Shown here: piece after piece, positions 30,770-64,000 of the stretch | Layout of the letters: every line of letters starts with the position of its first letter | Position numbering within the stretch: the first letter of the stretch is position 1 | Source: Leucobacter musarum subsp. musarum | Lineage (GTDB): Bacteria > Actinomycetota > Actinomycetes > Actinomycetales > Microbacteriaceae | Length of the DNA stretch: 64,000 nucleotides | Assembly (NCBI RefSeq): GCF_001273845.1 | Contig: NZ_JHBW01000063.1 | Location: forward strand, 62,001-126,000 | Direction of reading: 5' to 3' | Program-made: the position numbers and the translations under genes | Notes under the pieces: model-generated | Database searches by the model: none | The model's input: the letters and a program-made list of their open reading frames with translations, nothing else | What the model was told of the DNA's origin: nothing

Positions 30770-31726
30770 ATGTCGGAAGTGCGGCGTCCAGATGACGTCC
30801 TGGCCATGGGTCGACTCGGAGTCGACATCTACCCGTTGCAAGACGGGGTTGGCCTGGAAGATGTCACGAGCTTCGGCAAGTACCTCGGGGGCAGTGCGGC
30901 GAACGTCGCCGTCGCCGCCGCGAAGTACGGCCGGGCGAGCGCGCTGGTATCGCGCGTCGGCGATGATCCGTTCGGGCGGTACCTGTTGCGCGAGCTCGAT
31001 CGCCTCGGCGTCGACCCGCGCGAGGTGAAGGTCGATCCCGAGTTTCCGACCCCCGTCACTTTCTGCGAGATCTTTCCGCCCGATGACTTCCCGCTGTACT
31101 TCTACCGGAAGCCGAAGGCACCCGACCTGCAGATCGCGACGGCAGATCTCGATCTCGACGCGGTGCGCGAAGCGCGCATCCTCTGGTTCACGCTGACCGG
31201 CCTGAGCGAGGAGCCGAGCCGCTCTACGCACTTCGCCGCGCTCGAAGCCCGTGCCGGCAAGCCCCACACCATCTTCGATCTCGACTACCGCCCAATGTTC
31301 TGGGCCGACCCCGCCGAGGCCACCGCGCAGGCGGGCGCCGCGCTCGTGCACGCCACAATCGCAGTGGGCAATAAAGAGGAGTGCGAAGTCGCGGTCGGCG
31401 AAACCGAACCCGATCGCGCCGCCGACGCGCTGCTCGAGCGCGGCATCGAGCTCGCGATCGTGAAGCAGGGGCCGAAGGGCGTGCTCGCGAAGACCCGCGA
31501 CGAGCGCGTCGAGGTGCCCCCGCACTTCGTGGACGTCATCAACGGGCTCGGCTCGGGCGACGCGTTCGGCGGCGCCCTCATCCACGGGTTGCTCGAGGGC
31601 TGGAATCTCGAGCGCATCTTCCGCTTCGCCAACGTCGCCGGTGCGATCGTGGCTACTCGTCGCGAGTGCTCCACGGCCATGCCCGACGCCGCTGAGGTCG
31701 AGGCCCTGCTCACGAAGGGGGCCTGA
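30770..31726 (+). CDS. iolC: 5-dehydro-2-deoxygluconokinase
   Basis: PfkB-family kinase of 318 residues that phosphorylates 2-deoxy-5-keto-gluconate in myo-inositol catabolism. It has GGSAANVAVAAAKYGRASALVSRVGDDPFG cut between the substrate lid and the first motif, and the catalytic end NGLGSGDAFGGALIHG containing the base Asp. GAGAAGG precedes the ATG. It is the first gene of the iolC-D operon; the next start is 2 bp after its stop. Confidence 0.93.
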   Translation: MSEVRRPDDVLAMGRLGVDIYPLQDGVGLEDVTSFGKYLGGSAANVAVAAAKYGRASALVSRVGDDPFGRYLLRELDRLGVDPREVKVDPEFPTPVTFCEIFPPDDFPLYFYRKPKAPDLQIATADLDLDAVREARILWFTLTGLSEEPSRSTHFAALEARAGKPHTIFDLDYRPMFWADPAEATAQAGAALVHATIAVGNKEECEVAVGETEPDRAADALLERGIELAIVKQGPKGVLAKTRDERVEVPPHFVDVINGLGSGDAFGGALIHGLLEGWNLERIFRFANVAGAIVATRRECSTAMPDAAEVEALLTKGA

Positions 31727-31728
31727 TC

Positions 31729-32613
31729 ATGGCACTCGATTTCGCAGCCCTGCGCGACCTCCGTGCGGGCAATCCGGCGGCGATCGGCCGCGCGCTCGCC
31801 GAGCGACGCCGGCGCGACGTCATCGCGGGTGACGGTCGTCTGTTCATCGTGGCGGCGGATCACCCGGCCCGCGGCGCCATCGCCGTCGGCAGTGATGCCA
31901 CCGCCATGGCCAACCGCTACGACCTGCTCGAGCGCATGGCGATCGCGCTGTCGCGCCCCGGCGTCGACGGCGTGCTCGGCACCCCCGACATCATCGACGA
32001 CCTCGCGGCGCTCGGCCTGCTCGACGACAAGATCGTCGTCGGTTCGATGAACCGCGGCGGGTTGCGCGGGGCCTCGTTCGAGCTCGACGACCGCTACACC
32101 GCGTACGACATCGACGCGATGGTGCGGCAGGGGCTCGACTTCGCGAAGACGCTCATCCGTGTCGATCTGAACGATGCCGGTACCGCGTCGACGCTGCAGG
32201 CGACGGCTCGCGCCGTCGACGACGCGGCGGCGGCCGGCCTGCCGATCATGCTCGAACCCTTCATGAGCAACCGTGTGAACGGCAAGGTCGTGAACGACCT
32301 GTCGGCCGATGCCGTCATCCTCTCGACCGCGATCGCCTCGGGTCTCGGCAACTCCAGCGCGTACACCTGGATGAAGCTGCCCGTGGTGCCCGAGATGGAG
32401 CGCGTCATGGAGGCCACCACGATGCCGACGCTGCTGCTCGGCGGCGACAACGGCGGCGACCCCGACGAGACCTTCGCCTCCTGGGAGAACGCGCTCGCGC
32501 TTCCGGGCGTGCGCGGCCTCACCGTCGGACGCACCCTGCTCTACCCCCACGACGGCGACGTGGCCGGAGCGGTCGACACGGCTGCACGGCTCGTGCACCG
32601 CGACCTCGCCTAG
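31729..32613 (+). CDS. Cgl0158-type (beta/alpha)8 aldolase-like protein
   Basis: 294-residue class I aldolase-like TIM barrel found directly after iolC in actinobacterial inositol operons (Cgl0158 in C. glutamicum). Its place suggests it cleaves the phosphorylated iolC product to dihydroxyacetone phosphate and malonate semialdehyde, the role of IolJ elsewhere. Landmarks are the FIVAADHPARGAI start, a lysine-containing strand (KTLIRVDLNDAG) and GRTLLYP near the end. The activity is inferred. Confidence 0.75.
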   Translation: MALDFAALRDLRAGNPAAIGRALAERRRRDVIAGDGRLFIVAADHPARGAIAVGSDATAMANRYDLLERMAIALSRPGVDGVLGTPDIIDDLAALGLLDDKIVVGSMNRGGLRGASFELDDRYTAYDIDAMVRQGLDFAKTLIRVDLNDAGTASTLQATARAVDDAAAAGLPIMLEPFMSNRVNGKVVNDLSADAVILSTAIASGLGNSSAYTWMKLPVVPEMERVMEATTMPTLLLGGDNGGDPDETFASWENALALPGVRGLTVGRTLLYPHDGDVAGAVDTAARLVHRDLA

Positions 32614-32661: not shown

Positions 32662-34176
32662 ATGAGCACCGATTCCCTCCCCGTCATTCCGCACTGGATC
32701 GATGGCGCACGCCGCGCCTCGAACAGCGGTCGCACGGCCCCCGTTTTCAACCCCGCCACCGGCGAGGTGCAGGCCCACGTCGCACTCGCCGATGAGGCCG
32801 AGATCGCCGAGGCCATCGCATCGGCGAACCGCGGCTTCGCCGTGTGGAGCGAGTTCTCCATGGCCAAGCGCCAGACCGTGATCTTCAAGTTCCGTGAACT
32901 GCTGAACGCGCGCAAGGGCGAACTCGCCGCGATCATCACCCGCGAGCACGGCAAGGTCGTCTCGGACGCGATGGGCGAGATTCTCCGCGGCCAGGAAGTC
33001 GTGGAGCTCGCGACCGGGTTCCCGCACCTCATCAAGGGCGCGTTCTCAGAGAACGCCTCGACCGGCATCGACGTCTACTCGATCAAGCAGCCGATCGGCG
33101 TCGCGGGCATCATCGCGCCCTTCAACTTCCCGGCCATGGTGCCGATGTGGTTCTTCCCGATCGCTGTCGCCGCGGGCAACGCCGTCATCGTGAAGCCCTC
33201 CGAGAAGGATCCCTCGGCCGCGCTGTGGCTCGCCGAGCTGTGGCAGGAGGCCGGTCTTCCCGACGGCGTCTTCACCGTGCTCAACGGTGACAAGCTCGCC
33301 GTCGACGGTCTGCTCACCGACCCGGGAGTGAACTCGATCTCGTTCGTCGGCTCGACGCCGATCGCGCAGTACATCTACGAGACCGCCTCGAAGCACGGCA
33401 AGCGCGTGCAGGCACTCGGCGGCGCGAAGAACCACATGCTGGTGCTGCCCGACGCCGACCTCGACCTCGTCGCCGATCAGGCCATCAACGCGGGCTACGG
33501 CGCCGCGGGCGAGCGCTGCATGGCGATCTCGGTCGTGCTGGCCGTCGAGCCCGTCGCCGACGAGCTCATCGAGAAGATCACCGAGCGCATCGCGAAGCTC
33601 AACATCGGCAACGGTGCCGCGACGCCCGAGCCCGACATGGGGCCGCTGATCACCGACGTGCACCGCGACAAGGTCACCGGGTACATCGACATCGCCGAGC
33701 AGGATGGCGCGACGATCGTCGTCGACGGCCGTAACTTCCGGGTCGAGGGGCACGAGAACGGCTTCTTCGTCGGGCCCACGCTCATCGACAACATCCCCAC
33801 CACCTCGCGCGCCTACACCGAGGAGATCTTCGGGCCGGTGCTCGAAATCGTACGTGTCAAGACTTTCGAAGAGGGCGTCGAGCTCATCAACTCCGGGGCC
33901 TTCGGCAACGGCACGGCGATCTTCACGAACGACGGGGGAGCGGCCCGCCGATTCCAGCACGAGATCCAGGTCGGCATGATCGGCATCAACGTGCCGATCC
34001 CGGTGCCCGTGGCCTACCACTCCTTTGGCGGCTGGAAGGCGTCGCTGTTCGGCGACGCGAAGGCGTACGGCGTGCAGGGCTTCGAGTTCTTCACCCGCGA
34101 GAAGGCCATCACGAGCCGCTGGCTCGATCCCGCCAAGCACGGCGGCATCAACCTCGGCTTCCCGCAGAACGACTAA
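32662..34176 (+). CDS. iolA: Methylmalonate-semialdehyde dehydrogenase (CoA-acylating)
   Basis: Converts malonate semialdehyde to acetyl-CoA with NAD and CoA. It has 504 residues. The catalytic Cys is in AAGERCMAIS, the NAD-binding part is VIVKPSEKDPSAA, and FNFPAMVPMWFFPIAVAAGN is the MMSDH-specific form of the entry motif (IolA/MmsA type). It lacks the general-base Glu that hydrolysing ALDHs have. It follows the aldolase gene after 48 bp. Confidence 0.93.
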   Translation: MSTDSLPVIPHWIDGARRASNSGRTAPVFNPATGEVQAHVALADEAEIAEAIASANRGFAVWSEFSMAKRQTVIFKFRELLNARKGELAAIITREHGKVVSDAMGEILRGQEVVELATGFPHLIKGAFSENASTGIDVYSIKQPIGVAGIIAPFNFPAMVPMWFFPIAVAAGNAVIVKPSEKDPSAALWLAELWQEAGLPDGVFTVLNGDKLAVDGLLTDPGVNSISFVGSTPIAQYIYETASKHGKRVQALGGAKNHMLVLPDADLDLVADQAINAGYGAAGERCMAISVVLAVEPVADELIEKITERIAKLNIGNGAATPEPDMGPLITDVHRDKVTGYIDIAEQDGATIVVDGRNFRVEGHENGFFVGPTLIDNIPTTSRAYTEEIFGPVLEIVRVKTFEEGVELINSGAFGNGTAIFTNDGGAARRFQHEIQVGMIGINVPIPVPVAYHSFGGWKASLFGDAKAYGVQGFEFFTREKAITSRWLDPAKHGGINLGFPQND

Positions 34177-34207: not shown

Positions 34208-35236
34208 ATGACGCAGCAATCGCAGCAGGCCGAACGCTGGTTCCACCGGCGCGGTGAACTCGCCGAGGGCGGATGGGAATCCGTCGTCGACGAGCGCATT
34301 CCGGGCTGGGAGCACACCGGTGTACGGGTGGCTCGCCTGGCCGAGGGCGCGACCATCGCGCTCGAGGGCACGGGCATCGAGCGTCTCATCGTTCCCCTCT
34401 CCGGTTCGTTCTCGGTGACCTACCGCGACGGCGCCGCTGAAGCTGCGGACGCCGGTGTCTCCGGTGCCGATACCACCGCGGAGCTCGCCGGCCGTCGCTC
34501 GGTCTTCGACGGCCCGACCGACGTGCTCTACCTGTCGTCGGCCGCCACCGGGGAGGTCACCGCGACCTCCGCGCCGAACGGCGAGGCGCGCTTCCTCGTC
34601 GCCACCTCTCCGGTGCCCGCCGACCAGCCGCAGCTCGTGCGCCCCTCGCGCTACATGCCGGTCGCCGACGTGCCCGTGGAGTTGCGCGGCGCCGGCGCCT
34701 CGAGCCGCCAGGTGCACAACTTCGGGCGCAAGGAGTCGCTCGATGCGGCCCGCTTCATCGTCGTCGAGGTCATCACCCCGGCCGAGAACTGGTCGTCGTA
34801 CCCGCCCCATAAGCACGACGAGCACATCCCGGGCCACGAATCCGAACTCGAGGAGATCTACTACTTCGAGGTCGCCCCGACGAAAGACGCCCCGGCCGGA
34901 GTCGATCCCGAGCGCGCGTTCGGTATGTTCAGCACGTACTCATCGCCCGCCGGGCCCATCGAGATCGATTCGCAGGTGCACACCGGCGACATCGCCCTCG
35001 TGCCCCACGGCTACCACGGCCCCGCCGTGGCCGCCCCGGGCTACGACATGTACTACCTCAACGTGATGGCCGGGCCCGACCCCGAGCGCACCTGGCTCAT
35101 CAGCGACGACCCGGCCCACGGCTGGGTGCGCGACACCTGGGAGGGGCAGCAGCTCGACTCCCGCCTCCCCTTCGCTCCCGCCGACACCGGCGCCGTGAGC
35201 ACCGAAACCGCCACCGAAACGGAGTCCGCACGATGA
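34208..35236 (+). CDS. iolB: 5-deoxy-glucuronate isomerase
   Basis: Bicupin metal isomerase that makes 2-deoxy-5-keto-gluconate. Zinc or iron ligands are in SSYPPHKHDEH, ELEEIYYFEV and GDIALVPHGYHG. With 342 residues it is longer than the roughly 270-residue Bacillus enzyme; the extra part includes an N-terminal cupin insert and a Thr/Glu-rich tail. Its stop overlaps the iolD start by 4 bases. Confidence 0.92.
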   Translation: MTQQSQQAERWFHRRGELAEGGWESVVDERIPGWEHTGVRVARLAEGATIALEGTGIERLIVPLSGSFSVTYRDGAAEAADAGVSGADTTAELAGRRSVFDGPTDVLYLSSAATGEVTATSAPNGEARFLVATSPVPADQPQLVRPSRYMPVADVPVELRGAGASSRQVHNFGRKESLDAARFIVVEVITPAENWSSYPPHKHDEHIPGHESELEEIYYFEVAPTKDAPAGVDPERAFGMFSTYSSPAGPIEIDSQVHTGDIALVPHGYHGPAVAAPGYDMYYLNVMAGPDPERTWLISDDPAHGWVRDTWEGQQLDSRLPFAPADTGAVSTETATETESAR

Positions 35237-37173
35237 CCACCCGGCGCATGACGGTCAGCCAGGCGCTGATCGAATTCCTCGCGAACCAGTGGACCGTGGA
35301 TCGAGCGGCCGACGGCACCGAGATTCGCGAACGCACCATTCCGGGTGTCTTCGGCATCTTCGGGCACGGCAACGTGGCCGGCATCGGCCAGGCGCTCAAG
35401 CAGGCCAACGTCGAGCAGCCCGACCTCATGCCCTACTACCAGGCGCGCAACGAGCAGGCCATGGTGCACCAGTCGGTGGGCTACGCCCGCATGCATCGCC
35501 GCCGCGGCACCTACGCGTCGGCCGCGTCGGTCGGCCCGGGCGCCGCCAACCTGCTCACCGGAGCCGCGCTCGCGACCACCAACCGCCTGCCCGCGCTGCT
35601 GCTGCCGAGCGACACCTTCGCGACCCGCGTCGCCGACCCGGTGCTGCAGCAGCTCGAGCAGCCCCACGACATCGGTCTGACCGTCAATGACGCGTTCCGC
35701 CCCGTCTCGAAGTTCTTCGACCGCGTGCAGCGCCCCGAGCAGCTCTTCTCGATCGCGCTTGCCGCCCTCCGTGTGCTCACCGACCCGGCCGAGACCGGTG
35801 CCGTCACGATCGCGCTCCCCGAAGACGTGCAGGCCGAGGCGCTCGACGTGCCCGAGGAGTTCTTGCAGCCCCGCGAGTGGCGCATTCGCCGCCCGCGCCC
35901 CGAGCGCGACGCGTTCGCGCTCGCACTTGAGGCGATCCGCACCGCGAAGCGCCCGCTGATCGTCGCCGGTGGCGGCGTGCTCTACTCGGATGCCGAGCAG
36001 CAGCTGCGCGAGTTCGTCGAGGCGACCGGTATTCCGGTCGGCACCTCGCAGGCCGGTGGTGGAGTGCTCGCGTGGGATCACCCGCAGTACCTCGGCGGCA
36101 TCGGTGCGACGGGTACGCTCGCCGCCAACCGCCTGGCGGCGGAGGCCGACGTCATCATCGGCATCGGCACCCGTTACAGCGACTTCACGACGTCGTCGCG
36201 CACCGCGTTCCAGAACCCGGGCGTGCAGTTCGTCAACATCAACGTCGCGTCGTTTGACGCGTACAAGCACGGCACGCAGATCCCTGTGGTCGCCGACGCC
36301 CGCGAGACGCTCCTTGAGCTGCTCGACGCCCACGGAAACGGGGCGGCAGGGGATCTGCGTGTCGATTCCTCCTACGCCGAGCGCATCGCCGCCGAGAAGG
36401 CGGAGTGGGACGGCCTGGTCGACGAGGCCTTCGAGCCGTCGGGTCTCGACTTGCCGGGGCAGCCCGAGATCATCGGTGCCGTGCAGCGCTCGTCGGCGCC
36501 GGCCGACGTCATCGTGCAGGCTGCGGGATCGCTGCCCGGCGACCTCCACAAGCTGTGGCGCGTGCGCGACCCGCTGGGGTACCACGTCGAGTACGCCTTC
36601 TCGTGCATGGGGTATGAGATCGCGGGCGGCATCGGCGCGAAGCGCGGGCTGGTCGAGGCCGGAGACGACCGCGACGTCATCATCATGGTGGGCGACGGCT
36701 CGTACCTGATGCTCAACACCGAGCTCGTCACCGCGGTCGCCGAGGGCATCAAGGTCATTGTGATCCTGATTCAGAATCACGGCTACGCGTCGATCGGTCA
36801 CCTCTCGGAGACGGTCGGATCGGAGCGCTTCGGCACCTGGTACCGCGAGTACGACGGCGTCGCGAAGAATTTCCAGGGCGAGCAGGTGCTGCCGATCGAC
36901 CTCGCTATGAACGCCCGCAGCTACGGCATGGACGTCATCGAGGTCGACCCGGGCGCGAGCGCGATCACCGACCTCGAGGCTGCGATCGCGCAGGCCAAGG
37001 CCTCGGATCGTGCGACTTTCATTCACATCAACAGCGACCCGCTGATCTACGCGCCCGACGGTGCGGGCTGGTGGGACGTGCCGGTGCCGCAGGTCTCGAC
37101 GCTCGACTCCACGCAGCGCGCGCGGGCCGAGTACGAAGAGCAGGTCGCGGCTCAGAAGCCGCTGCTGGGCTGA
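35233..37173 (+). CDS. iolD: Trihydroxycyclohexane-1,2-dione hydrolase
   Basis: ThDP-dependent ring-opening enzyme of 646 residues. The family signature is FGIFGHGNVAGIGQAL, the catalytic Glu is in ARNEQAMVHQSVGYAR, and the ThDP/Mg motif GDGSYLMLNTELVTA closes with IQNHGYASIG. It is coupled to iolB by an ATGA overlap. It is the last gene of the operon before the terminator at 37198. A second, divergent copy of the family is at 59510. Confidence 0.94.
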   Translation: MTTRRMTVSQALIEFLANQWTVDRAADGTEIRERTIPGVFGIFGHGNVAGIGQALKQANVEQPDLMPYYQARNEQAMVHQSVGYARMHRRRGTYASAASVGPGAANLLTGAALATTNRLPALLLPSDTFATRVADPVLQQLEQPHDIGLTVNDAFRPVSKFFDRVQRPEQLFSIALAALRVLTDPAETGAVTIALPEDVQAEALDVPEEFLQPREWRIRRPRPERDAFALALEAIRTAKRPLIVAGGGVLYSDAEQQLREFVEATGIPVGTSQAGGGVLAWDHPQYLGGIGATGTLAANRLAAEADVIIGIGTRYSDFTTSSRTAFQNPGVQFVNINVASFDAYKHGTQIPVVADARETLLELLDAHGNGAAGDLRVDSSYAERIAAEKAEWDGLVDEAFEPSGLDLPGQPEIIGAVQRSSAPADVIVQAAGSLPGDLHKLWRVRDPLGYHVEYAFSCMGYEIAGGIGAKRGLVEAGDDRDVIIMVGDGSYLMLNTELVTAVAEGIKVIVILIQNHGYASIGHLSETVGSERFGTWYREYDGVAKNFQGEQVLPIDLAMNARSYGMDVIEVDPGASAITDLEAAIAQAKASDRATFIHINSDPLIYAPDGAGWWDVPVPQVSTLDSTQRARAEYEEQVAAQKPLLG

Positions 37174-52035: not shown

Positions 52036-53049
52036 ATGACGCAGACCCCCGTCCGCTTCGGACTCATCGGTACCGGCCGCATCGGCCAGGTACACGCCGC
52101 CAGCATCGCCGCGTCGCCGAACGCCACGCTCGCCTGGGTGGCCGACCCGTTCATCGACGGTGCACGCGGCGTCGCCGCGCGCTATGGCGCGACGGCGACC
52201 GAGTCGGCTGAGCAGCTCATCGCCTCCGGCGAGATCGACGCGGTGCTCATCGCCTCGCCGACCCCCACGCACGTCGACCTCATCGAAGCTTCGGTGCGTG
52301 CCGGCCTGCCCGTGCTCTGCGAGAAGCCGATCGACCACGACATCGCGCGCGTCGACGCTCTCAGCCCGCTCGTCGCCGAAGCCGGGGTGCCGGTCGCGCT
52401 CGGCTTCAATCGCCGGTTCGACCCGAACCACGGCGCCGCTCGCGCGCGGGTGCATGCCGGTGAGATCGGCAGCCTGGAGCAGCTGATCATCATCAGCCGC
52501 GATCCCGCAGCTCCGCCCGCCGACTACGTGGGTATCTCGGGTGGCATCTTCCGCGACATGACCATTCACGACTTCGACATGGCGCGCTTCTTCACCGGCG
52601 ACGACGCGATCGTCTCGGTCTCGGCGACCGGCACGCGCACCTTCGACCCGGGCGCCCGCGAGCACGGCGACTTCGACACCGCCGTCGCGACCCTGCGTAC
52701 GGCAAGCGGTGCGGTGGTCACGATCGTGAACTCGCGCCACAGCGCGGTCGGCTACGACCAGCGCATCGAGGCGTTCGGCGCGCGCGGCATGCTGCAGGTC
52801 GGCAACCCGCAGACCAATACGGTGGTGGTGTCGACGGCCGATGCGGTCGAGGCGCGCCCCGCCTACCCCGAGTTCTTCTTGGAGCGCTACGCCGAGGCGT
52901 ACTCCGCCGAACTCGAGGAGTTCGTGCGGCTCGTGCGCGGCGAGGCTTCCACCAGCCCGACGTTCGCAGATGGGCGGGCCGCGCTGATCCTCGCCGATGC
53001 CGCGCAGCGCTCCGCCGAAACCGGCGTCGCGGTCGCGGTCGAGCTCTGA
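52036..53049 (+). CDS. Inositol 2-dehydrogenase-like Gfo/Idh oxidoreductase
   Basis: 337 residues. GLIGTGRIGQVHAAS is the NAD loop, CEKPIDHD has the EKP triad, and SGGIFRDMTIHDFDMARFF is the IolG-type active-site helix with the catalytic Asp and His. It is a second iolG-like gene, probably acting on a different inositol isomer or sugar. The operator at 51976 controls it. The hyi-like gene follows after 29 bp. Confidence 0.85.
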   Translation: MTQTPVRFGLIGTGRIGQVHAASIAASPNATLAWVADPFIDGARGVAARYGATATESAEQLIASGEIDAVLIASPTPTHVDLIEASVRAGLPVLCEKPIDHDIARVDALSPLVAEAGVPVALGFNRRFDPNHGAARARVHAGEIGSLEQLIIISRDPAAPPADYVGISGGIFRDMTIHDFDMARFFTGDDAIVSVSATGTRTFDPGAREHGDFDTAVATLRTASGAVVTIVNSRHSAVGYDQRIEAFGARGMLQVGNPQTNTVVVSTADAVEARPAYPEFFLERYAEAYSAELEEFVRLVRGEASTSPTFADGRAALILADAAQRSAETGVAVAVEL

Positions 53050-53078: not shown

Positions 53079-53867
53079 ATGACCTATCGCCTCGCCGCGT
53101 GCGCAGAGATGCTCTTCGTTGACCTGCCGTTCGTGGAGCGCGTGCAGCGCATCCACGAGCGCGGGCTGCTCGTGGAGATCTGGGACTGGAGTACGAAAGA
53201 CCTCGCGGCGCTCGCCGCCACCGGAGCCGAGTTCTCGTCGATGACGGGGTACCTGCGCGGTGACCTCACCACCGCTGAGGGCCGTCGCGAGTTGCTCGCC
53301 ACGGCGCGTGAATCGCTCGCGGCCGCCGAGATCATCGACTCGCCGCGCCTGAACCTGCACGGCACCGGGTTGGGCGAGGGCGGGCTGCCGGTCGTGCCGC
53401 ACGAGCACGTGAGCGGCGCCGATTGGGTGCACGCGGCCGAGACGCTGCGCCAGGTCGCCGAACTCGGCCGAGCGTCCGGGCGCACCTTCGTGCTCGAAAA
53501 CCTCAACCTCGCGGTCGACCACCCGGGCACCCCGTTCGCGAGGGCCGCCGACACGCTCGCGCTCGTGCGCGCGGCCGACCACCCGAATCTGCGACTGAAC
53601 CTCGACCTGTACCACGCGCAGATCGGTGAGGGAAACCTCGTCGAACTGGTGCGCGAGGCGCAGCCGTGGATCGGCGAGATCCAGATCGCCGACGTTCCGG
53701 GGCGCTGCGAGCCGGGCACGGGCGAGATCCGCTACGAAGCCGTCGCGCGGGCGCTCCGCGACCTCGGATACGACGGGGTGATCGGCATGGAGGCCTGGGC
53801 GAGTGGCGATCCGGACGCGGCGCTCGACGCCTTCACCGCCGCGTTCGGTGCGGGCATCGCCGCCTAG
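53079..53867 (+). CDS. Hydroxypyruvate isomerase-like TIM barrel
   Basis: 262-residue Hyi-family TIM barrel (LAACAEMLFVDLPFVERV start, VLENLNLAVDHPGTPFA, LNLDLYHAQIGEGNL). The Hyi family includes 2-oxo-tetronate and hydroxypyruvate isomerases. In this operon it probably isomerises the keto product of the upstream dehydrogenase. Its metal ligands Glu, Asp, His and Glu are in the expected strands. Confidence 0.78.
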   Translation: MTYRLAACAEMLFVDLPFVERVQRIHERGLLVEIWDWSTKDLAALAATGAEFSSMTGYLRGDLTTAEGRRELLATARESLAAAEIIDSPRLNLHGTGLGEGGLPVVPHEHVSGADWVHAAETLRQVAELGRASGRTFVLENLNLAVDHPGTPFARAADTLALVRAADHPNLRLNLDLYHAQIGEGNLVELVREAQPWIGEIQIADVPGRCEPGTGEIRYEAVARALRDLGYDGVIGMEAWASGDPDAALDAFTAAFGAGIAA

Positions 53868-53957
53868 GCGATCCGGCACCGCGAACACCCTCGCGCCGTT
53901 CGACACGACCCTCCTCGCCACCCGACCCCTAAGATGAACGGGACGCGAGGAGGGTCG

Positions 53958-55022
53958 ATGACGGAGCAGACGGGAGCACCCGAGAGCGGCCCGACCGCCC
54001 CCGCGCGCCCGCCGACGATCCGCGACGTCGCCCGTGTCGCGGGCGTCTCGAAGTCGCTCGTCTCGCTCGTGTTCACCGGCGGCGACAATGTGAGCGAGGA
54101 GCGTCGACTGCGCGTGCTGCACGCCGCCGCGCAGCTGGGCTACCGCCCCAACCTCGTCGCCCAGTCGCTCTCGTCGGGGCGCCGCGACATCGTCGCGATT
54201 CTCGTGTCGAACCTGCACAATCCGCTCTTCGCCGAAATCGTGGGTGCCGCGAAGGCGCGGCTGGCCGAGGCGGGGAAGCGCACGATGATCGTGAGCGCGC
54301 AGGTCGACGACGGCGCGGGCGGTACGGTGCTGGATCGCGACAACCTCGACGTGCTCCGCGATCTGCGCCCGTCGGGCCTCATCACCGTCGGCACCATTCC
54401 CGAGTTCACCGAACTGGCCGGGCTTACCGCCGCGATGCCCACCGTGGTGGCCAGTGCGATCGACGCCACCGCCGACGTCGTCGCGACCGTGCGCACCGAC
54501 GATGTGGCGGGGCTCGACCTCGTCGTCGACCACCTCGTCGCTCAGGGCGTCTCGCGCATCGCGTTCATCGGCGGCGACGGCGGCACGGTGTCGGCCTCGC
54601 GAGAATCCGCCTTCCGTGCCGCTGTGGAGCGGCGCGACTTCGGTGCGCGGGCCTGGGTCGAGCGCGCCGACTTCACCGAGGCGGGGGCGCGCCGGGCGGT
54701 TGAGAGACTGCTCGCCGCCGACCACCTGCCCGAGGCGATCATTGCGGTCAACGACCTCACCGCAATCGGCGTCATCACCGCACTCGAAGCGGCAGGCATC
54801 GCGGTGCCAAGCGGGTGCCGCGTCGCCGGCTACGACGACACGACACTCTCCGCGATCCCGCGCATCTCGCTCACCAGTGTCGACCCCGACAACCGTCGCA
54901 TCGGGCGCGAAGCGGCAGAGGCGCTCCTCGATGCGCTGACGGGTGCGGTGCCGGGTGAGGCCTCGGCGACCGCAGGCGAAGTGCTGATTCCGCCGACCCT
55001 CGTCGTGCGCGCCTCGGCGTAG
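53958..55022 (+). CDS. LacI-family transcriptional regulator (second)
   Basis: 354 residues: helix-turn-helix TIRDVARVAGVSKSLVSLVF and a sugar-sensing C-terminal domain. ATG at 53958 follows GGAGGG; an upstream in-frame ATG at 53934 is possible. It lies between the two genes whose promoters carry the CTAGCACGTGCTAG-type palindrome (51976 and 56290). By adjacency it is the best candidate to bind them. Its recognition-helix residues equal those of the first LacI, whose neighbouring operator differs. Confidence 0.86.
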   Translation: MTEQTGAPESGPTAPARPPTIRDVARVAGVSKSLVSLVFTGGDNVSEERRLRVLHAAAQLGYRPNLVAQSLSSGRRDIVAILVSNLHNPLFAEIVGAAKARLAEAGKRTMIVSAQVDDGAGGTVLDRDNLDVLRDLRPSGLITVGTIPEFTELAGLTAAMPTVVASAIDATADVVATVRTDDVAGLDLVVDHLVAQGVSRIAFIGGDGGTVSASRESAFRAAVERRDFGARAWVERADFTEAGARRAVERLLAADHLPEAIIAVNDLTAIGVITALEAAGIAVPSGCRVAGYDDTTLSAIPRISLTSVDPDNRRIGREAAEALLDALTGAVPGEASATAGEVLIPPTLVVRASA

Positions 55023-56379: not shown

Positions 56380-57453
56380 TCAGGCGCGAGGCGCCGCTGT
56401 GCTCGCGCGCTTGGTGAGGGTCGGTATCACGTGGCGGGTGACCGTGCGCGCTCCCGGCTCAGCCAGGCGAGCATGCACCGTCTCGACCGCCAACTGCGCC
56501 ATGCGGTCGGGGTCGGGGCGTACCGACGTGAGGTCGATGTAGGGCAGCGCGGCTGCCGAGCTGTCGTCGAAGCCGACGATCGAGACGTCTTCGGGAATGC
56601 GCACTCCTGCGCGCACGAGCGTCTGCAGCGCACCGATGGCGGAGTGGTCGTTCATGCAGACCAGCGCGGTGACGGATTCGGTCGAGTGCGATGGGGCGGA
56701 TCCGGCACCCGCACGAATGCGCCCGTCGGCGAGCAACCCGAGTGCGGCGCGATGGCCGCCGAGCTCGGTGTAATCGCTTGCGACGACCTGCGCGGGGAGG
56801 CCGTGCGCGGCCATGGCGCCGTGGAAGCCGGCAAGTCGCGGGGCGGCGTTCGCACCGACTTCGGAGCCGACGTAGGCGATGCGAGTGTGGCCGAGCGCGA
56901 TCAGGTGCTCGACGGCGAGAGCGATGCCGCGTTCGTTCTCGACATCGACGCGGTCGTGGGGTTCGGGCGAGGTCGGCCCGCCAAGCAGCAGCGTGGGGAT
57001 TCCGGGTGGCAGGTCGGTGAGTACGTTCGTGCGCGAACTCATGCTCCCGTCGATGCCGGCTCCCGAATCGAGCACAATGAGTGCTTCGATGCGCTGACGC
57101 ATGAGCCCTGCGAGCGCAGGCTCGAGGTCGCGGTGCTCGCCCATGGTGCCCAGTGCGAGCGTGTAGCCGAGTTGCGCGGCGTGGCGGTAGAGCGCGTCGA
57201 CGAGGTCGACTTCGAACGGCTGGCGCATCGTGAAGAGCACACCGAGTTGCCCGCTGCGGCGGCGGCGCAGCATGCGTGCGGAGTCGTCGGGGTGGTAGCC
57301 GATCTCACGGGCGGCGGCCAGGATGCGCTCGCGCGACGCCTCACTGGCGCCCGGCGCCCCGCGCAGCACGATCGAGACGAGCTGTCGCGACATTCCGACG
57401 CGCTCGGCGACATCGCGCATGGTGGGGCGGGAAGCCGGCTCGGGGGTGCTCAC
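56380..57453 (-). CDS. LacI-family transcriptional regulator (third)
   Basis: 357 residues: helix-turn-helix TMRDVAERVGMSRQLVSIVL and a sensor domain. Its specificity residues (Arg, Gln, Ile) differ from the other two LacI proteins. GTG at 57453 with AAGAG upstream is the chosen start; the open frame continues to about 59463 but that part is antisense to the aldehyde dehydrogenase. It is divergent from that gene, with an 18-bp palindrome between. Confidence 0.85.
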   Translation of the reverse strand: MSTPEPASRPTMRDVAERVGMSRQLVSIVLRGAPGASEASRERILAAAREIGYHPDDSARMLRRRRSGQLGVLFTMRQPFEVDLVDALYRHAAQLGYTLALGTMGEHRDLEPALAGLMRQRIEALIVLDSGAGIDGSMSSRTNVLTDLPPGIPTLLLGGPTSPEPHDRVDVENERGIALAVEHLIALGHTRIAYVGSEVGANAAPRLAGFHGAMAAHGLPAQVVASDYTELGGHRAALGLLADGRIRAGAGSAPSHSTESVTALVCMNDHSAIGALQTLVRAGVRIPEDVSIVGFDDSSAAALPYIDLTSVRPDPDRMAQLAVETVHARLAEPGARTVTRHVIPTLTKRASTAAPRA

Positions 57454-57737: not shown

Positions 57738-57755
57738 ATTTGGACCGGTCCAAAT
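57738..57755. promoter_or_regulatory. LacI-type operator (18-bp perfect palindrome)
   Basis: ATTTGGACCGGTCCAAAT has an identical inverted half. The core TTGGA-N4-TCCAA is shared with the operator at 50169. It lies 32 bases upstream of the aldehyde dehydrogenase ATG. Confidence 0.75.
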
Positions 57756-57786
57756 CAAAGACGAAGCGGCACGACGAGAGGCGATC

Positions 57787-59331
57787 ATGGGCGATCAGAC
57801 AGTAGCGGCGGGGAGCGCGCCGGCCGACGGAGCGCAGGCAGCACAGGCGGGCACCGCACACACCGAGCACCCCACCGGCGCGGCGCACGAGACGCATCCC
57901 ACCCGCAGTTACGGACTGCTGCTCGGCGGCGAGTGGCGCGAAGCGCGCGACGGCAAGCGCGCGGCGATCCGCAGCCCGTTCGACGGCAGCATCGTCGGCG
58001 AGGTCGCCCTCGCCACGGCGCAAGACGCTGACGACGCAATCGAAGCTGCAGCACAAGGCGCAGCTCAGTGGCGCCGCACGCCGGCCCATGAGCGCGCGGC
58101 GATCCTGCTCCGTGCTGCGGCGCTCGCCGACGCCCGCACCGACGAACTCGCGACGACCATCTCGCTTGAAAACGGCAAGCCGTTCGCCGAGGCGAAGGGT
58201 GAGGCGGGCCGCTCGGGCGCGCTGATCCGTCTTGCGGCTCACGAGGGCACGCAACTGTACGGCGACAGCCTGCCGCTCGATGCGAACCCCGGCACGGGCC
58301 AAGACAAGGTCGGCTTCACGCTGCGCCAGCCCGTCGGCATCGTCGTCGCGATCACCCCGTTCAACTACCCCGCGTTGCTGGTGCTGCACAAGGTTGGCCC
58401 GGCCCTGGCCGCCGGCAACGCGGTCATTCTCAAGCCGGCGAGCGCCACCCCGCTCACGGCCCTCGCGCTCGCGAGCATCTTCGTCGAGGCGGGGGTGCCC
58501 GAGGGCGTGATCTCGGTGTTGACGGGCCCGGGTGGCCCGATCGGCGACGCGCTCGTGCGCGACCCGCGCGTGCGCAAGATCTCGTTCACGGGGTCGACCG
58601 GGGTGGGCGAGCGCATCGCGAGCCTCGCCAGCGTGAAGAAACTCTCGCTCGAGCTGGGCGCTTCGTCGCCGACCGTCATCTTGCCCGGCGTCGACATCGA
58701 GAAAGCGGCGGCTGCCGTCGCGGCAGGCGGTTACGTGAACGCCGGTCAGGTGTGCATCTCGGTGCAGCGCGTGATCGTGCACCGCGAGGTCGAAGCCGAC
58801 TTCCTCGACGCGTTGCGCCCGAAGGTTGAGGCGATTCGCATGGGCGATCCGCTCGCCGAGGGCACCACACTCGGCCCCCTCGTCGCAGAGCGCGAAGCCG
58901 AGCGCGTGGCGCAGAGCATCGCCCGCGCGGTCGACGACGGAGCGACGCTGCTCACGGGTGGCGAGCGCGACGGCGCCTTCGTCTCGCCCGCGATCGTCAC
59001 GGGGGTCGACACCCGCCAGGCGTTCGCGCAGGAGGAACTCTTCGGCCCCGCGGTCGCCGTCACCACAGTCGACAGCTTCGACGCCGCCATCGGCGCTGCG
59101 AACGGCACGCCGTACGGGCTCGCGGCCGGCGTCTTCGGCGGCACCCTCGGCGAGGGCGTGCGGGCAATGCGCGAGATCGACGCCGGCAGCGTGCACCTCG
59201 GCTGGACGCCGCTGTGGCGCGCCGACCTCATGCCCTACGGCGGGCTGAAGGCGAGCGGCTACGGCAAGGAGGGCGTGCGCTCGACTGTCGAGGAGATGAC
59301 CGAGGTGAAGACCGTCATCATCCACGGGTAG
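57787..59331 (+). CDS. Aldehyde dehydrogenase (NAD(P)+)
   Basis: 514-residue ALDH. The catalytic Cys is in NAGQVCISVQRV, the general base Glu in LELGASSPTV, and the NAD site VILKPASATPLTAL; the ending PYGGLKASGYGKEG is standard. An Ala/His-rich extension of about 45 residues precedes the ALDH fold. It resembles lactaldehyde/glycolaldehyde or succinate-semialdehyde dehydrogenases more than IolA. It is first in the operon with the second IolD; the operator at 57738 controls it. Confidence 0.85.
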   Translation: MGDQTVAAGSAPADGAQAAQAGTAHTEHPTGAAHETHPTRSYGLLLGGEWREARDGKRAAIRSPFDGSIVGEVALATAQDADDAIEAAAQGAAQWRRTPAHERAAILLRAAALADARTDELATTISLENGKPFAEAKGEAGRSGALIRLAAHEGTQLYGDSLPLDANPGTGQDKVGFTLRQPVGIVVAITPFNYPALLVLHKVGPALAAGNAVILKPASATPLTALALASIFVEAGVPEGVISVLTGPGGPIGDALVRDPRVRKISFTGSTGVGERIASLASVKKLSLELGASSPTVILPGVDIEKAAAAVAAGGYVNAGQVCISVQRVIVHREVEADFLDALRPKVEAIRMGDPLAEGTTLGPLVAEREAERVAQSIARAVDDGATLLTGGERDGAFVSPAIVTGVDTRQAFAQEELFGPAVAVTTVDSFDAAIGAANGTPYGLAAGVFGGTLGEGVRAMREIDAGSVHLGWTPLWRADLMPYGGLKASGYGKEGVRSTVEEMTEVKTVIIHG

Positions 59332-59509
59332 CGGCGCGGGATCGGGGCCGCCGCACCGCCGCACCCACGACGGCCCTGTATCTGCCGAACAGCCAATTCG
59401 CCGAACAGCCCCAGCCGAGCCACCAACTCGGCGCCCGCGCCACCACGCACACCACAGACTCACTCACTCACCGCATCACCGCACCTCAGCTCGCAAAGGA
59501 GCAGCACAC

Positions 59510-61459
59510 ATGGTCCAGGGAACCTCCGGTCAGACCGTCCGGCTCACGGTCGCGCAGGCGATCGTGCGATACATCGCCGCGCAGTACTCCGTCGCTGATG
59601 GCGTGCGCGAGCGCTTCGTGCCCGCCGCGCTCGGCATCTTCGGCCACGGCAACGTCGCGGGCCTCGGCCAGGCGCTCGCCGAGCACGCGGATCGCCTGCC
59701 GTTTGTGCAGGGCCGCAACGAGCAGGCGCTCGGCCATCTCGCGACCGGTTTCGCGAAGGCGTCGAAGCGTCGCCGCACGCTCGCGGTCACAGCGTCGGTC
59801 GGCCCGGGCGCCACGAACCTCGTCACCGCTGCGGCGCTCGCAACGGTGAACCGCATCCCGCTGCTCCTGCTGCCGGGTGACACGTACGCCACCCGTCGAC
59901 AGGGCCCGGTGCTGCAGCAGCTCGACCTGCCCGGCACCCCCGACGTGACCGCGAACGACACGTTCCGCCCCGTCTCGCGTTTCTTCGATCGCATCGCCCG
60001 ACCCGAGCAGTTGCTCACCGCGCTGCCGCAGGCGTTCCGCGTGCTGGCGAACCCCGAGGAGACGGGCGCTGTGGTGCTCGCGCTGCCGCAAGACGTGCAG
60101 TCGCATGCGTATGACTACCCGGTGGAGTTCTTCGCCGAGCGCGACTGGGTGATCCGTCGCCGGGTGCCCGACGCCGCCGAGGTCGCGCAGGTCGCCGAAC
60201 TGATCCGCGGCGCCCAGCGCCCGCTGATCATTGCCGGCGGCGGCGTGCACTACTCCGACGCGACCGCGGTGCTCACCGAGCTCGGCACGCGCACGCACCT
60301 GCCCATCAGTGAGACGTTCGCGGGCAAGGGCGCGGTGACCGCTGACGGCCCCTGGAGCGTATTCGGGATCGGGCTCGAGGGATCCCCCACCACTAATCGC
60401 CTGGCCGAGCGCGCCGACCTCATCGTGCACGTGGGCACGCGCCTCACTGATTTCGCCACCGCCTCGCAGTCGATCTTCACGAACCCCGACGTGCGCTTCG
60501 CGTCGATCAACATCGTCGAGCACGACGCGGTGAAGCAGGGCGCGACCGCGGTGATCGCCGACGCGAAGCTCGCGCTCGAGGCGCTCGCCGCAGCGCTCGA
60601 CGGGTACCGGGTGCCCGAGGCCTGGGGTGCCGACGTGATCGCCGCGCGCGACGCCTGGCTGCCGGTGCGCGATGCGGCGCTCGACGCCGACACCCGCTTT
60701 CCGCGTGAGGAGCACCCGGAGCTGCCCGACACCGGCGCGACGCTCACGCAGGGGCAGCTCATCGGCCTGCTGCAGCAGCACGCACGGCCCGGCGACACGA
60801 TCGTCGCGGCGGCCGGCGGCCCTCCCGGCGACCTGCAGAAGGTCTGGGATGCGACCGACGGGCGCCACGCGCACCTCGAGTTCGGATTCTCGTGCATGGG
60901 CTACGAACTGCCCGCCGCGATGGGCGTGCGCCTCGCCGACACCGATCCCGAGCATCGGGTCACCGCGTTCATCGGCGACGGCACCTTCGTCATGATGCCG
61001 ACCGAGATCGTGACGGCCGCGCAAGAGGGCATCCCCTTCACGGTCGTCATTTCCGAGAATCACGGCTACCAGGTGATCCGCCGCCTGCAGATGTGGCGCA
61101 CAGGCGAGCACTTCGGCAACGAGTTCCGGTACCGCGAGGCGGGCGGGTCGCTCGCCGGTGCCGACGCGGGCCGACTTGAGGGCGACTACTTGCGCATCGA
61201 CCTCGCACAGATCGCTGCGGGCCTCGGCGCCGAGGTGCGCACGGCCGAGACGCCCGCCGAGGTGCGCGCCGCGCTCGACGAGACGCGCGGGGTGCGCGGC
61301 CCGGTCGTGATCGTCGTGCCGACGATTCCGCACGCCGACCTGCCGTCGTCGGAGGTGTGGTGGGACGTCTCGCCCGCCGAGGTGTGGGAGCAGGTCGATA
61401 CGTCTGAGAAGCTCGTCAAGTACGGTGCGGGTCTGGCCGAGCAGCGGTGGCACGGATGA
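59510..61459 (+). CDS. IolD-family ThDP-dependent C-C hydrolase (second copy)
   Basis: 649 residues. It keeps FGIFGHGNVAGLGQAL, the catalytic Glu in QGRNEQALGHLATGFAK, and the ThDP motif GDGTFVMMPTEIVTAAQ with the closing SENHGYQV. It is clearly an IolD homologue but differs throughout from the copy at 35233, so it is a paralogue rather than a duplication of recent date. GGAG lies before the ATG. The downstream aldolase starts inside its stop codon. The ring-opening of a cyclic dione is the inferred reaction. Confidence 0.85.
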   Translation: MVQGTSGQTVRLTVAQAIVRYIAAQYSVADGVRERFVPAALGIFGHGNVAGLGQALAEHADRLPFVQGRNEQALGHLATGFAKASKRRRTLAVTASVGPGATNLVTAAALATVNRIPLLLLPGDTYATRRQGPVLQQLDLPGTPDVTANDTFRPVSRFFDRIARPEQLLTALPQAFRVLANPEETGAVVLALPQDVQSHAYDYPVEFFAERDWVIRRRVPDAAEVAQVAELIRGAQRPLIIAGGGVHYSDATAVLTELGTRTHLPISETFAGKGAVTADGPWSVFGIGLEGSPTTNRLAERADLIVHVGTRLTDFATASQSIFTNPDVRFASINIVEHDAVKQGATAVIADAKLALEALAAALDGYRVPEAWGADVIAARDAWLPVRDAALDADTRFPREEHPELPDTGATLTQGQLIGLLQQHARPGDTIVAAAGGPPGDLQKVWDATDGRHAHLEFGFSCMGYELPAAMGVRLADTDPEHRVTAFIGDGTFVMMPTEIVTAAQEGIPFTVVISENHGYQVIRRLQMWRTGEHFGNEFRYREAGGSLAGADAGRLEGDYLRIDLAQIAAGLGAEVRTAETPAEVRAALDETRGVRGPVVIVVPTIPHADLPSSEVWWDVSPAEVWEQVDTSEKLVKYGAGLAEQRWHG

Positions 61460-62289
61460 GCGGGGCACAGCTGAGCGGCAAGCAGAGCGGCGCAGGATCG
61501 AGCCCGCTCACCCCCGGCTGGGCGCTCCGCGAGCGCTTTCTCGCCGGTGAGCCGACGGTCGGCACATTCATCGGGCTCGGCTCGGTGACCGCGGCCGAGG
61601 TGTGCGCGTCGGCCGGTCTCGACTGGCTGCTCGTCGACCTCGAGCACGGTGGCGGCGACGAGCATCAGGTCGGCTCGATCGCAGCGGCGGCGGGCGGGTA
61701 CGGCGTCGCGACGCTGGTGCGCATCGAGCAGCCGGATCGCATTCGCATCGGGCGCGTGCTCGACGCGGGCGCCGCCGGTGTCATGCTGCCGCGCATCTCG
61801 AGCGCGGCCGATGCGGCAGACGCCCTGCGGCACCGGCTCTACCCGCCCGAGGGAGACCGCGGGGTGGCGAGCTACAACCGAGCCGCCCGCTGGGGCCGCG
61901 ACTTCGGCGCCATCGACGCGGCCAACCACCGCGCGGTCGGGGTCGTGCAGATCGAGACCGCGGGTGCGATGCGCGAGCTCGACGCGATCGCGGCGCTCGA
62001 CGGCGCCGACGTGCTCTTCATCGGGCCGCAGGATCTGAGCTACGCGCTCGGCGTGCCGCGCCAGTACGACGCCCCGGTCTTCCAGGAGGCGCTCGACGCG
62101 GTGGTCGTCGCCTGCCGCGCGCACGGCAAGGTCGCCGGCATCTTGACCAATGACCGGGCCGGCGCCGAGGCGTACCTCGCCCGCGGGTTCGGCTTCGTGG
62201 CCATAGGTTCGGATGCGACGTTGCTCGCGGCGACGGTGCGCGGGGCGATCCCGAATGGACTCGGAGTGGATCGCGAGGCGATCTCGTGA
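61456..62289 (+). CDS. HpcH/HpaI-family class II aldolase
   Basis: 277-residue metal-dependent pyruvate aldolase. FIGLGSVTAAEVCASAGLDWLLVDLEHGG, the ETAGAMRELDAIAALDGADVLFIGPQDLS region and the Arg of VASYNRAARWG are the active-site motifs. The family cleaves 2-keto-3-deoxy or 4-hydroxy-2-oxo acids. ATG at 61456 overlaps the preceding stop (ATGA). It overlaps the next gene by 4 bases as well. Its presence beside IolD instead of iolB, iolC and the Cgl0158 aldolase indicates another route for the ring-opened product. Confidence 0.86.
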   Translation: MSGAQLSGKQSGAGSSPLTPGWALRERFLAGEPTVGTFIGLGSVTAAEVCASAGLDWLLVDLEHGGGDEHQVGSIAAAAGGYGVATLVRIEQPDRIRIGRVLDAGAAGVMLPRISSAADAADALRHRLYPPEGDRGVASYNRAARWGRDFGAIDAANHRAVGVVQIETAGAMRELDAIAALDGADVLFIGPQDLSYALGVPRQYDAPVFQEALDAVVVACRAHGKVAGILTNDRAGAEAYLARGFGFVAIGSDATLLAATVRGAIPNGLGVDREAIS

Positions 62290-63254
62290 GTGCGAGTGCG
62301 GCCGGGCGTGCCGGGCGTGCCGGGTCCGCGCGAGCTGACGCCGAGCGCCCCGTCGTCGTCGCGCTGGGCCCGGTGGCGCCCGAGCACGTGGTGCCGTATC
62401 TGCCCGACGACGCCATCTTCGTGCCCGACCCTTCGGCGGGCGACCTGGCCGTTGCCGAGGGGGCCATCGTTCGCGCCGCGTATCGGCTCGACCGTGCAGC
62501 GCTCGACCGCATGCCGAGGCTGCGGGTGATCGCTCGCACCGGCGTCGGGGTCGACCACGTCGACGTCGCCGCTGCGCACGAGCGCGGCATTCCGGTCGCG
62601 ATCACCCCGGGCAGCAACAGTCGCGCGGTCGCCGAGGGCGCCTTCGCGATGATCGCGTCACTCGTGAAGGGCCTCGGCGAATCGCATCGCTATGTTTCGG
62701 CGAACGAGTGGGGTCGCGAGCCGGTGCCGCCCGCCGGCGATCTGCACGGGCTCACGCTCGCGATCCTCGGCTACGGTCGCATCGGTCGCATCATCGCGGG
62801 GTTCGGTCGAGCGTTCGGCATGGAGATCGTGGTGCACGACCCGTTCGTGACGGCTGAGGACGCCGAGAACGTGTCGCTCGAGGAGGCCGTGCGCCGCGCG
62901 GATGCGCTGACGCTGCATCTGCCCGGTGGCGGCGGGGAACTGCTACCTCCGGCGATCCTGCGCACCGCGAAACCAGGCTTAGTGCTGGTGAACTGCGCTC
63001 GCGCCGACCTCGTGTCGACCGAGACGCTGGTCGACGCGCTCGAAGCCGGTGTGCTCGGCGGGGTGGGGCTCGATGTGTTCTCGGACGAGCCGGTGCGGGA
63101 TCACCCGCTCGCCGGGCGCACTGACGTGCTGCTGAGCCCGCACACCTCTGGATTTTCCGCGGCCGCATTGCGCGCTACGGTGCGGATGGCGGCGGAGGCT
63201 GTGGGGGAAACCCTCGCAGGTCGTTATCCAACCTTTACCGTAAGTGATGCTTGA
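62286..63254 (+). CDS. D-isomer-specific 2-hydroxyacid dehydrogenase
   Basis: 322 residues. The NAD loop is LAILGYGRIGRIIAG and the catalytic residues are the Arg of NCARADLV, the Glu of DVFSDEP and the His of SPHTSGF. Members reduce or oxidise glycerate-, lactate- or phosphoglycerate-type acids. GTG at 62286 overlaps the aldolase stop, so four genes from 57787 to 63254 form one operon or two. The Ala/Gly-rich N-terminus (about 20 residues) is unusual. Confidence 0.85.
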   Translation: MSASAAGRAGRAGSARADAERPVVVALGPVAPEHVVPYLPDDAIFVPDPSAGDLAVAEGAIVRAAYRLDRAALDRMPRLRVIARTGVGVDHVDVAAAHERGIPVAITPGSNSRAVAEGAFAMIASLVKGLGESHRYVSANEWGREPVPPAGDLHGLTLAILGYGRIGRIIAGFGRAFGMEIVVHDPFVTAEDAENVSLEEAVRRADALTLHLPGGGGELLPPAILRTAKPGLVLVNCARADLVSTETLVDALEAGVLGGVGLDVFSDEPVRDHPLAGRTDVLLSPHTSGFSAAALRATVRMAAEAVGETLAGRYPTFTVSDA

Positions 63255-63263
63255 ATGCGGAAG

Positions 63264-63306
63264 TTACGGTACTGTAATCGCAAAGCATCAGCTTTGTAAC
63301 GACATT
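63264..63306. promoter_or_regulatory. Regulatory region of the ABC transporter gene
   Basis: TTGAAT (63251-63256) and TGTAAT (63273-63278), 16 apart, may be -35 and -10. TTACGGTACTGTAA (63264-63277) is a near-palindrome, CAAAGC-ATCA-GCTTTG (63281-63296) is a perfect one, and TGTAACGACATT (63295-63306) is identical to a sequence in the iolT promoter. Confidence 0.5.
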
Positions 63307-63333
63307 AGTTCAATAACACGATGGAGTGAAACT

Positions 63334-64000
63334 ATGTTGAAATCACGTTTCGGGCGTTGGTCGAAGTTCGGACTTGCCGGTATTGCAGCGGCGGGCGCCC
63401 TCATGCTCGCAGCCTGCGGATCGCCGGCAGGAGCGGGCGGCGGCGCAGCGGGCGGCGGCGGAGGTGTGGAAGAGGACGAGATCAAGGTCGCCCTCATCAC
63501 CCACGCGGCGCCCGGCGACACCTTCTGGGACACGATCCGCGCCGGCGCCGAGAATGCGGCAGAGCGCAACAACGTCGAGCTGCTCTACAGCTCGGATCCT
63601 GACGGAGCGCGCCAGGCGCAGCTCGTGCAGCAGGCAGTCGACCAGAAGGTCGACGGCATCGTGGTCACGCTCGCCAAGGCAGACGCTATGGCCGGCGAGG
63701 TCAAGAAGGCGGTCGACGCGGGCATTCCGGTGTTCAGCATCAACGCCGGCGAGAACGACTACAAGGACCTGGGTGTGCTGGCGCACTTCGGTCAGAACGA
63801 GTTCATCGCGGGTCAGGCCGCAGGCGAGCAGTTCAACGAGGCGGGTCTGAAGAAGGCCATCTGCGTCATCCAGGAGCAGGGCCACGTCGGCCTCGAAGCT
63901 CGCTGCGAGGGCCTCGCCGACACCTTCGAGGGCACCTCCGAGGTGCTGTACGTGCAGGGCACCGACATGACGAACGTCGCGTCGACCATCACGTCGAAGC
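63334..64000 (+). CDS. Sugar ABC transporter substrate-binding lipoprotein (partial)
   Basis: Extracytoplasmic binding protein of the Peripla_BP_4 (ribose/inositol-type) family; 222 residues are in the window and the rest lies beyond it. Signal peptide with lipobox LAAC (Cys28) after a basic start, then a Gly-rich linker and the fold start IKVALITHAAPGDTFWDTIRAG. GGAG precedes the ATG by 7 bases. It is the first gene of an import system presumably completed downstream. Regulation by the inositol regulator is suggested by the shared 12-mer. Confidence 0.85.
   Translation, partial: MLKSRFGRWSKFGLAGIAAAGALMLAACGSPAGAGGGAAGGGGGVEEDEIKVALITHAAPGDTFWDTIRAGAENAAERNNVELLYSSDPDGARQAQLVQQAVDQKVDGIVVTLAKADAMAGEVKKAVDAGIPVFSINAGENDYKDLGVLAHFGQNEFIAGQAAGEQFNEAGLKKAICVIQEQGHVGLEARCEGLADTFEGTSEVLYVQGTDMTNVASTITSK

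Follow-up and report, generated by a model that had tools for sequence, protein, structure and literature searches.

Inositols are an abundant source of carbon in plants and soil, and their classical breakdown, of the Bacillus subtilis and Corynebacterium glutamicum type, proceeds through IolG, IolE, IolD, IolB, IolC, an aldolase and IolA. Comparable by description to the locus analysed here is also the cyclohexane-1,2-dione hydrolase route of Azoarcus, in which a ThDP-dependent opening of the dione is followed by oxidation of the aldehyde to a dicarboxylate, and for which we know of no aldolase step. Aldolases of the HpcH/HpaI type, such as HpaI, GarL and YfaU of the oxidative homoprotocatechuate, glucarate and rhamnonate pathways, cleave the C3-C4 bond of 2-oxo-4-hydroxy acids. 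Classical iol gene clusters have been surveyed by the presence of at least three of iolB, iolC, iolD and iolE (PMC9430895), and lgdA, which encodes a scyllo-inositol/L-glucose dehydrogenase of Paracoccus (5ya8), is located in a putative inositol cluster (PMC12632266). The IolD-centred operon described in the following lacks the iolB and iolC of that survey rule.

The operon lies at the end of the window, i.e., the whole analysed stretch of 64,000 nucleotides, in a genome of 3.4 Mb whose close relatives are Leucobacter. The genes and the order proposed in a first-pass annotation have been confirmed, all on the + strand: an aldehyde dehydrogenase (ALDH, 514 aa, 57787..59331, Aldedh 505.9 bits), the IolD paralogue IolD2 as a putative ThDP-dependent cyclic 1,2-dione hydrolase (649 aa, 59510..61459), an HpcH/HpaI class II aldolase (61456..62289, PF03328), a D-2-hydroxyacid dehydrogenase (HADH, 62286..63254, PF00389/PF02826) and a CUT2-type ABC sugar-binding protein (63334..64000 in the window, ending outside it at 64347 of the flanking contig). 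Both 4-base overlaps have been found as well (ATGA at 61456-61459, and 62286-62289), and an alternative GTG start of the aldolase is possible upstream, at 61447. The module start given as 57738 needs correction, as no gene starts there: this is the base preceding a 16-bp palindrome, and the ALDH start codon is located at 57787. The catabolic unit extends past the window, where the binding-protein gene is followed by those of an ABC permease (64377-65423) and an ABC ATPase (65420-66394) and, after an MFS gene and an acyltransferase-like gene, by a second operon encoding an inositol-dehydrogenase-like Gfo/Idh protein (69291-70511), an IolE-like, dehydratase-like TIM barrel (70569-71456), a further Gfo/Idh oxidoreductase (71453-72526) and an SDR oxidoreductase (72563-73369). 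The claimed absence of iolB, iolC and a Cgl0158-type aldolase holds for the operon but not for the window, which encodes all three, with IolC at 30770-31726, the aldolase at 31729-32613, IolA at 32662-34176, IolB at about 34208-35236 and IolD1 at 35233-37173.

IolD2 exceeds the curated cut-off of the IolD profile TIGR04377 (770.4 vs 715 bits) and forms a clade of its own (SH-aLRT 100) beside canonical IolD, with IolD3, a third IolD, as its sister. The expected grouping with IolD is thus borne out by both the score and the placement inside the IolD group, and another ThDP enzyme type has been ruled out by profile and tree. The ThDP motif residues E71, G489-D490-G491 and N517 are invariant across IolD1, IolD2 and IolD3. 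A consistent difference has been observed in the loop after the GDG-N motif, which reads ENHGYQVIRRLQM...FGNEFRYR in IolD2 and QNHGYASIGHLSE...FGT.YR in IolD1, and the substrate-side loop is QVIRRLQM in IolD2 vs ASIGHLSE in IolD1, so that a shifted isomer preference of IolD2 is possible. IolD3 itself (G000:C92:125993-127858, locus L011 10940-17359; 742.9 bits, cut-off 715) is followed 3' by an ALDH, an IolG (358 bits, cut-off 355), an SDR and a D-2-hydroxyacid dehydrogenase and preceded 5' by another D-2-hydroxyacid dehydrogenase, in a locus without an HpcH aldolase. The same genome hence holds a second grouping of IolD, ALDH and hydroxyacid dehydrogenase, and the IolD-ALDH pair occurs in four more Leucobacter genomes (L070-L073).

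The nearest NCBIfam families of ALDH are of the lactaldehyde/SSADH/glyceraldehyde type, all under cut-off, and its identity as malonate semialdehyde dehydrogenase (IolA) is unlikely (MMSDH 269 bits, cut-off 448.5). The aldolase belongs to the HpcH/HpaI superfamily by its PF03328 domain and catalytic residues, aligning all those of HpaI (DxEH, Arg, the Glu of QIET and the Asp of FIGPxDLS), and scores 184.7 bits with TIGR02311 (HpaI 4-hydroxy-2-oxoheptanedioate aldolase), under the equivalog cut-off of 368.8; HADH is of the PGDH/glyoxylate reductase type, under all cut-offs. As all three stay under the equivalog cut-offs, their substrate assignments are putative. The downstream IolE-like protein reaches 152 bits to IolE (cut-off 290), the canonical IolE of the window only 127, and the nearest characterised entry of the downstream Gfo/Idh is the scyllo-inositol dehydrogenase 5ya8. 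The nearest NCBIfam model of this dehydrogenase (276 of 650 bits) suggests a levoglucosan-type pathway, which is unlikely given the IolE-like partner of the enzyme and the IolD core of the module. The sugar-binding protein is nearest to a family binding rhizopine, an inositol derivative (190.7 bits, cut-off 420), and among solved structures to 4ru1 (48% identity, E 7e-84, Z 39.3), whose ligand we take to be myo-inositol. The relatives of the binding protein and of the Gfo/Idh point to cyclitols as the substrate class.

Conservation of the arrangement has been followed by an IolD2 scan of genomes from 84,980 species, with the best 80 matches kept. These best 80 loci share 61-90% identity, are all actinobacterial, and belong to Leucobacter, Nesterenkonia, Pseudoclavibacter, Arthrobacter, Rhodococcus, Streptomyces, Nonomuraea, Kineosporia, Amycolatopsis and freshwater MAGs; up to 10 kb from IolD2 they encode ALDH in 78 cases, HpcH in 76, HADH in 75, a Gfo/Idh in 67 and an IolE-like protein in 65. 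Among the 43 loci with 6 kb on either side of IolD2, which served as the full-length subset and represent many actinobacterial families, ALDH, HpcH and HADH are each present in 42, and IolD2 is flanked in the order ALDH-IolD2-HpcH in 41, which places the gene set far beyond chance; the variable order of the remaining genes argues for selection keeping the set together. The ALDH/HpcH/HADH set is absent from all 18 canonical IolD loci of relatives, which carry IolB, IolC, a Cgl0158-type aldolase or IolA, and IolB, IolC and the Cgl0158 aldolase are absent from the examined locus sequence of 30/39 full modules. IolD2 is rare in a class-wide sample (4/395 genomes). The minimal set, ALDH-IolD2-HpcH-Gfo/Idh-HADH-IolE-like, has been seen in Streptomyces, and many modules contain extra dehydrogenases and an SDR. 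Relatives of an IolG-type inositol 2-dehydrogenase of the window (52036..53049, + strand, TIGR04380 384.9 bits, cut-off 355) are found near the module in 53/80 loci. The adjacent hydroxypyruvate-isomerase-like (xylose-isomerase-like) TIM barrel (53079..53867, + strand, TIGR03234 115.4 bits, cut-off 353) appears as a Leucobacter accessory in only 6/80 loci and would fit a hydroxypyruvate product. Loci of Streptomyces, Rhodococcus and Humibacillus carry, next to the module, a QuiC-like TIM barrel (L150:15954-16808, scoring 73.8 bits with 3-dehydroshikimate dehydratase), and comparable ORFs are present in L133 and L146.

The palindrome in the ALDH promoter, TTTGGACCGGTCCAAA (57739..57754), is perfect over its 16 bp and represents a putative LacI-type operator. 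With up to 3 mismatches allowed, the window holds no second near-match, and genome-wide, at up to 2 mismatches, one further site has been found about 130 bp 5' of the downstream inositol-dehydrogenase-like gene; the reversed-sequence control gave no match in the genome-wide search. With at most 1 mismatch it lies 5' of ALDH in 16/17 same-genus loci (L041-L057), where it also precedes the Gfo/Idh gene and, if the transporter is separated, the binding-protein gene. From the common palindrome 5' of each we infer that the operons form one regulon. Its candidate binder is a divergent LacI-family regulator (56380..57453, - strand, PF00356/PF13377), relatives of which stand beside the module in some loci only; a second LacI-family gene (53934..55022, + strand) may instead encode the cognate regulator, since its relatives adjoin the module more often, in 44/80 loci. 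Freshwater loci such as L104 carry a single TTGGANCGNTCCAA site 50-80 bp 5' of the iol operon (25 sites observed over the scanned loci vs about 0.7 expected), and in these lineages one putative operator lies in the gap between the module and the iol genes diverging from it.

An occurrence of the set without iolB, as envisaged in the first-pass annotation, has not been borne out. In 57/57 and 24/24 searched IolD2-bearing genomes (79 distinct) iolB is present, one match being partial in a fragmented genome, and the contrast of 79/79 to the base rate of 165/395 in the class sample is inflated by the relatedness of the genomes, yet without a single exception. IolD2 is the sole IolD over the family cut-off in 19 genomes, all of which keep iolB and which include G442, G457 and G017 (98-99% complete); exactly one IolE-type match, often beside IolD2, occurs in 16 of the 19, and iolC in 7 of the 8 examined. 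The Leucobacter genome G017 (L161, G017:C1:1955000-1974900) has cleanly lost iolD1 and the neighbouring iolE, with iolC, aldolase, iolA and iolB intact. G028 has been discarded as an iolD1-less genome, its iolD1 copy being simply broken in the assembly like the neighbouring genes. The two gene sets can be found face to face: in freshwater loci (e.g., L104) iolB-iolA-aldolase-iolC faces LacI-ALDH-IolD2-HpcH-Gfo/Idh-HADH-IolE-like, and in G557 iolB-iolC directly faces IolD2 and the IolE-like gene. The HpcH/HpaI aldolase has not been found genome-wide in the drafts of G557 and G545, both sole-IolD2 genomes keeping iolB and iolC, and the IolD2 of these aldolase-less genomes carries the same substrate-side loop. 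As the only IolD in 19 iolB-keeping genomes, two of them without the aldolase, IolD2 probably provides IolB with its usual substrate and would stand at the branch point instead of opening a new kind of ring, and the different cyclic dione suggested for it is not needed. The simplest reading of ALDH, HADH and the aldolase is that of a second exit from the IolD2 product. The proposed replacement of IolB, IolC and their aldolase by a non-phosphorylated set therefore holds in the operon, where such a route is plausible, but the module as a self-contained substitute for the classical pathway is rejected at the genome level.

We would give even chances to the reading of the unit as a LacI-regulated inositol-type module whose lower branch is oxidative and non-phosphorylated, with the IolD2 product at the branch point, for which the genes, their families, the conserved grouping, the common palindrome and the co-occurrence with iolB form the basis in the sequence. 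A non-phosphorylated branch of inositol breakdown is likely, and we infer the steps of ALDH, HADH and aldolase, the identity of the isomer used and the position of the branch point. After uptake via the CUT2 ABC transporter, the inositol would be converted to the inosose by the downstream Gfo/Idh and dehydrated by the IolE-like TIM barrel to trihydroxycyclohexane-1,2-dione, which IolD2 would hydrolyse to 5-deoxy-D-glucuronate or an epimer. This product would also be open to IolB, IolC and the Cgl0158 aldolase, whose retention in the same cells suggests it as the branch point. ALDH would then oxidise the C1 aldehyde to a 5-deoxy-aldarate (5-deoxyglucarate from 5-deoxy-D-glucuronate), HADH the C2 hydroxyl to 2-oxo-3,4-dihydroxyadipate, and cleavage between C3 and C4 by the HpcH/HpaI aldolase would release hydroxypyruvate and malonate semialdehyde, the latter yielding acetyl-CoA through IolA. 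The retro-aldol products predicted earlier, pyruvate or a 2-oxo acid plus an aldehyde, would accordingly be narrowed to this pair. In 5-deoxy-D-glucuronate the aldehyde is adjacent to a 2R hydroxyl, and the gluco series has the side used by D-2-hydroxyacid dehydrogenases. All proposed steps are atom-balanced as computed, and the minimal Streptomyces set offers six enzymes for six steps from inositol, with no kinase or dehydratase lacking. True MMSDH/IolA proteins (702 and 837 bits, cut-off 448.5) are encoded in an Arthrobacter operon and near a Streptomyces module, which fits malonate semialdehyde as a product. Against this reading, HADH might just as well be a reductase that forms glycerate from hydroxypyruvate. 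Only tentatively, and with somewhat more doubt than belief, we extend the proposal to a widespread kinase-free actinobacterial branch, in which one IolD would feed the phosphorylated route and also an oxidative one that passes through 5-deoxyglucarate and 2-oxo-3,4-dihydroxyadipate and ends in hydroxypyruvate and malonate semialdehyde.

Among the alternatives, the one that survives best, albeit rather unlikely, assumes a different isomer or a methyl or deoxy inositol, whose deoxyuronate is not isomerisable by IolB, so that ALDH, HADH and aldolase take over; oxidation would tolerate the other stereochemistry, and a broad IolD2 would also serve the IolB route. The loop that sets IolD2 consistently apart from IolD1, the several additional dehydrogenases and the SDR of many modules and the keeping of both lower branches together agree with such a substrate, but no evidence names any isomer, and IolD2 with the same loop persists alongside iolB and iolC where the HpcH/HpaI aldolase is gone. 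Freshwater actinobacterial MAGs (L104-L120) carry both lower branches face to face with a shared putative operator in genomes of 0.8-1.5 Mb. That genomes of 1-1.5 Mb retain the two is hard to explain if both consume the same compound, and speaks for another isomer or for a function in overflow. Improbable is a dehydration of the 5-deoxy-aldarate to 4-hydroxy-2-oxoadipate, cleaved to pyruvate and malonate semialdehyde, with HADH acting elsewhere, e.g., in the reduction of hydroxypyruvate or pyruvate: its atoms balance and HpaI, to which the aldolase is nearest, acts on the homologue one carbon longer, but no sugar-acid dehydratase has been recognised in or near the module among the loci read, the QuiC-like TIM barrel is present in some loci only, and HADH, conserved as strongly as the aldolase, would be left without a task. 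The earlier reading, in which IolD2 opens a novel cyclic dione and the module substitutes on its own for the classical pathway, accords with an operon that lacks iolB and iolC and holds the complete steps of a self-sufficient route, but is most improbable in the face of iolB in every IolD2-bearing genome tested, of sole-IolD2 genomes that keep iolB and mostly iolC, and of G017 with its iolC-aldolase-iolA-iolB genes intact after the loss of iolD1 and iolE.

An oxidative, non-phosphorylated inositol branch has not been found described in the literature searched, which covered few subscription papers. If true, the preferred reading, i.e., a second, oxidative exit from the IolD2 product, would add an ATP-free branch to the textbook inositol pathway and predict 5-deoxyglucarate and 2-oxo-3,4-dihydroxyadipate as intermediates new to it. 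It would also give a function to generically named ALDH, HpcH/HpaI and hydroxyacid dehydrogenase genes of Arthrobacter, Streptomyces, Rhodococcus and freshwater actinobacteria. With the classical pathway the module has in common ABC uptake, the steps of an inositol-dehydrogenase-like enzyme, an IolE-like protein and IolD, and malonate semialdehyde together with IolA, whereas ALDH, HADH and an HpcH/HpaI aldolase stand in the operon for IolB, IolC and the phosphate-dependent aldolase. LgdA is a close characterised relative of the Gfo/Idh of the module, but the L-glucose pathway in which it acts uses gluconate and a KDPGal aldolase, without IolD. With HpaI, GarL and YfaU, finally, the module aldolase has the fold family and the catalytic residues in common, and its proposed reaction resembles theirs in that a 2-oxo-4-hydroxy acid is cleaved to a C3 oxo acid and an aldehyde; it differs from them in scoring under every equivalog cut-off and in being tied to IolD within a cyclitol cluster.
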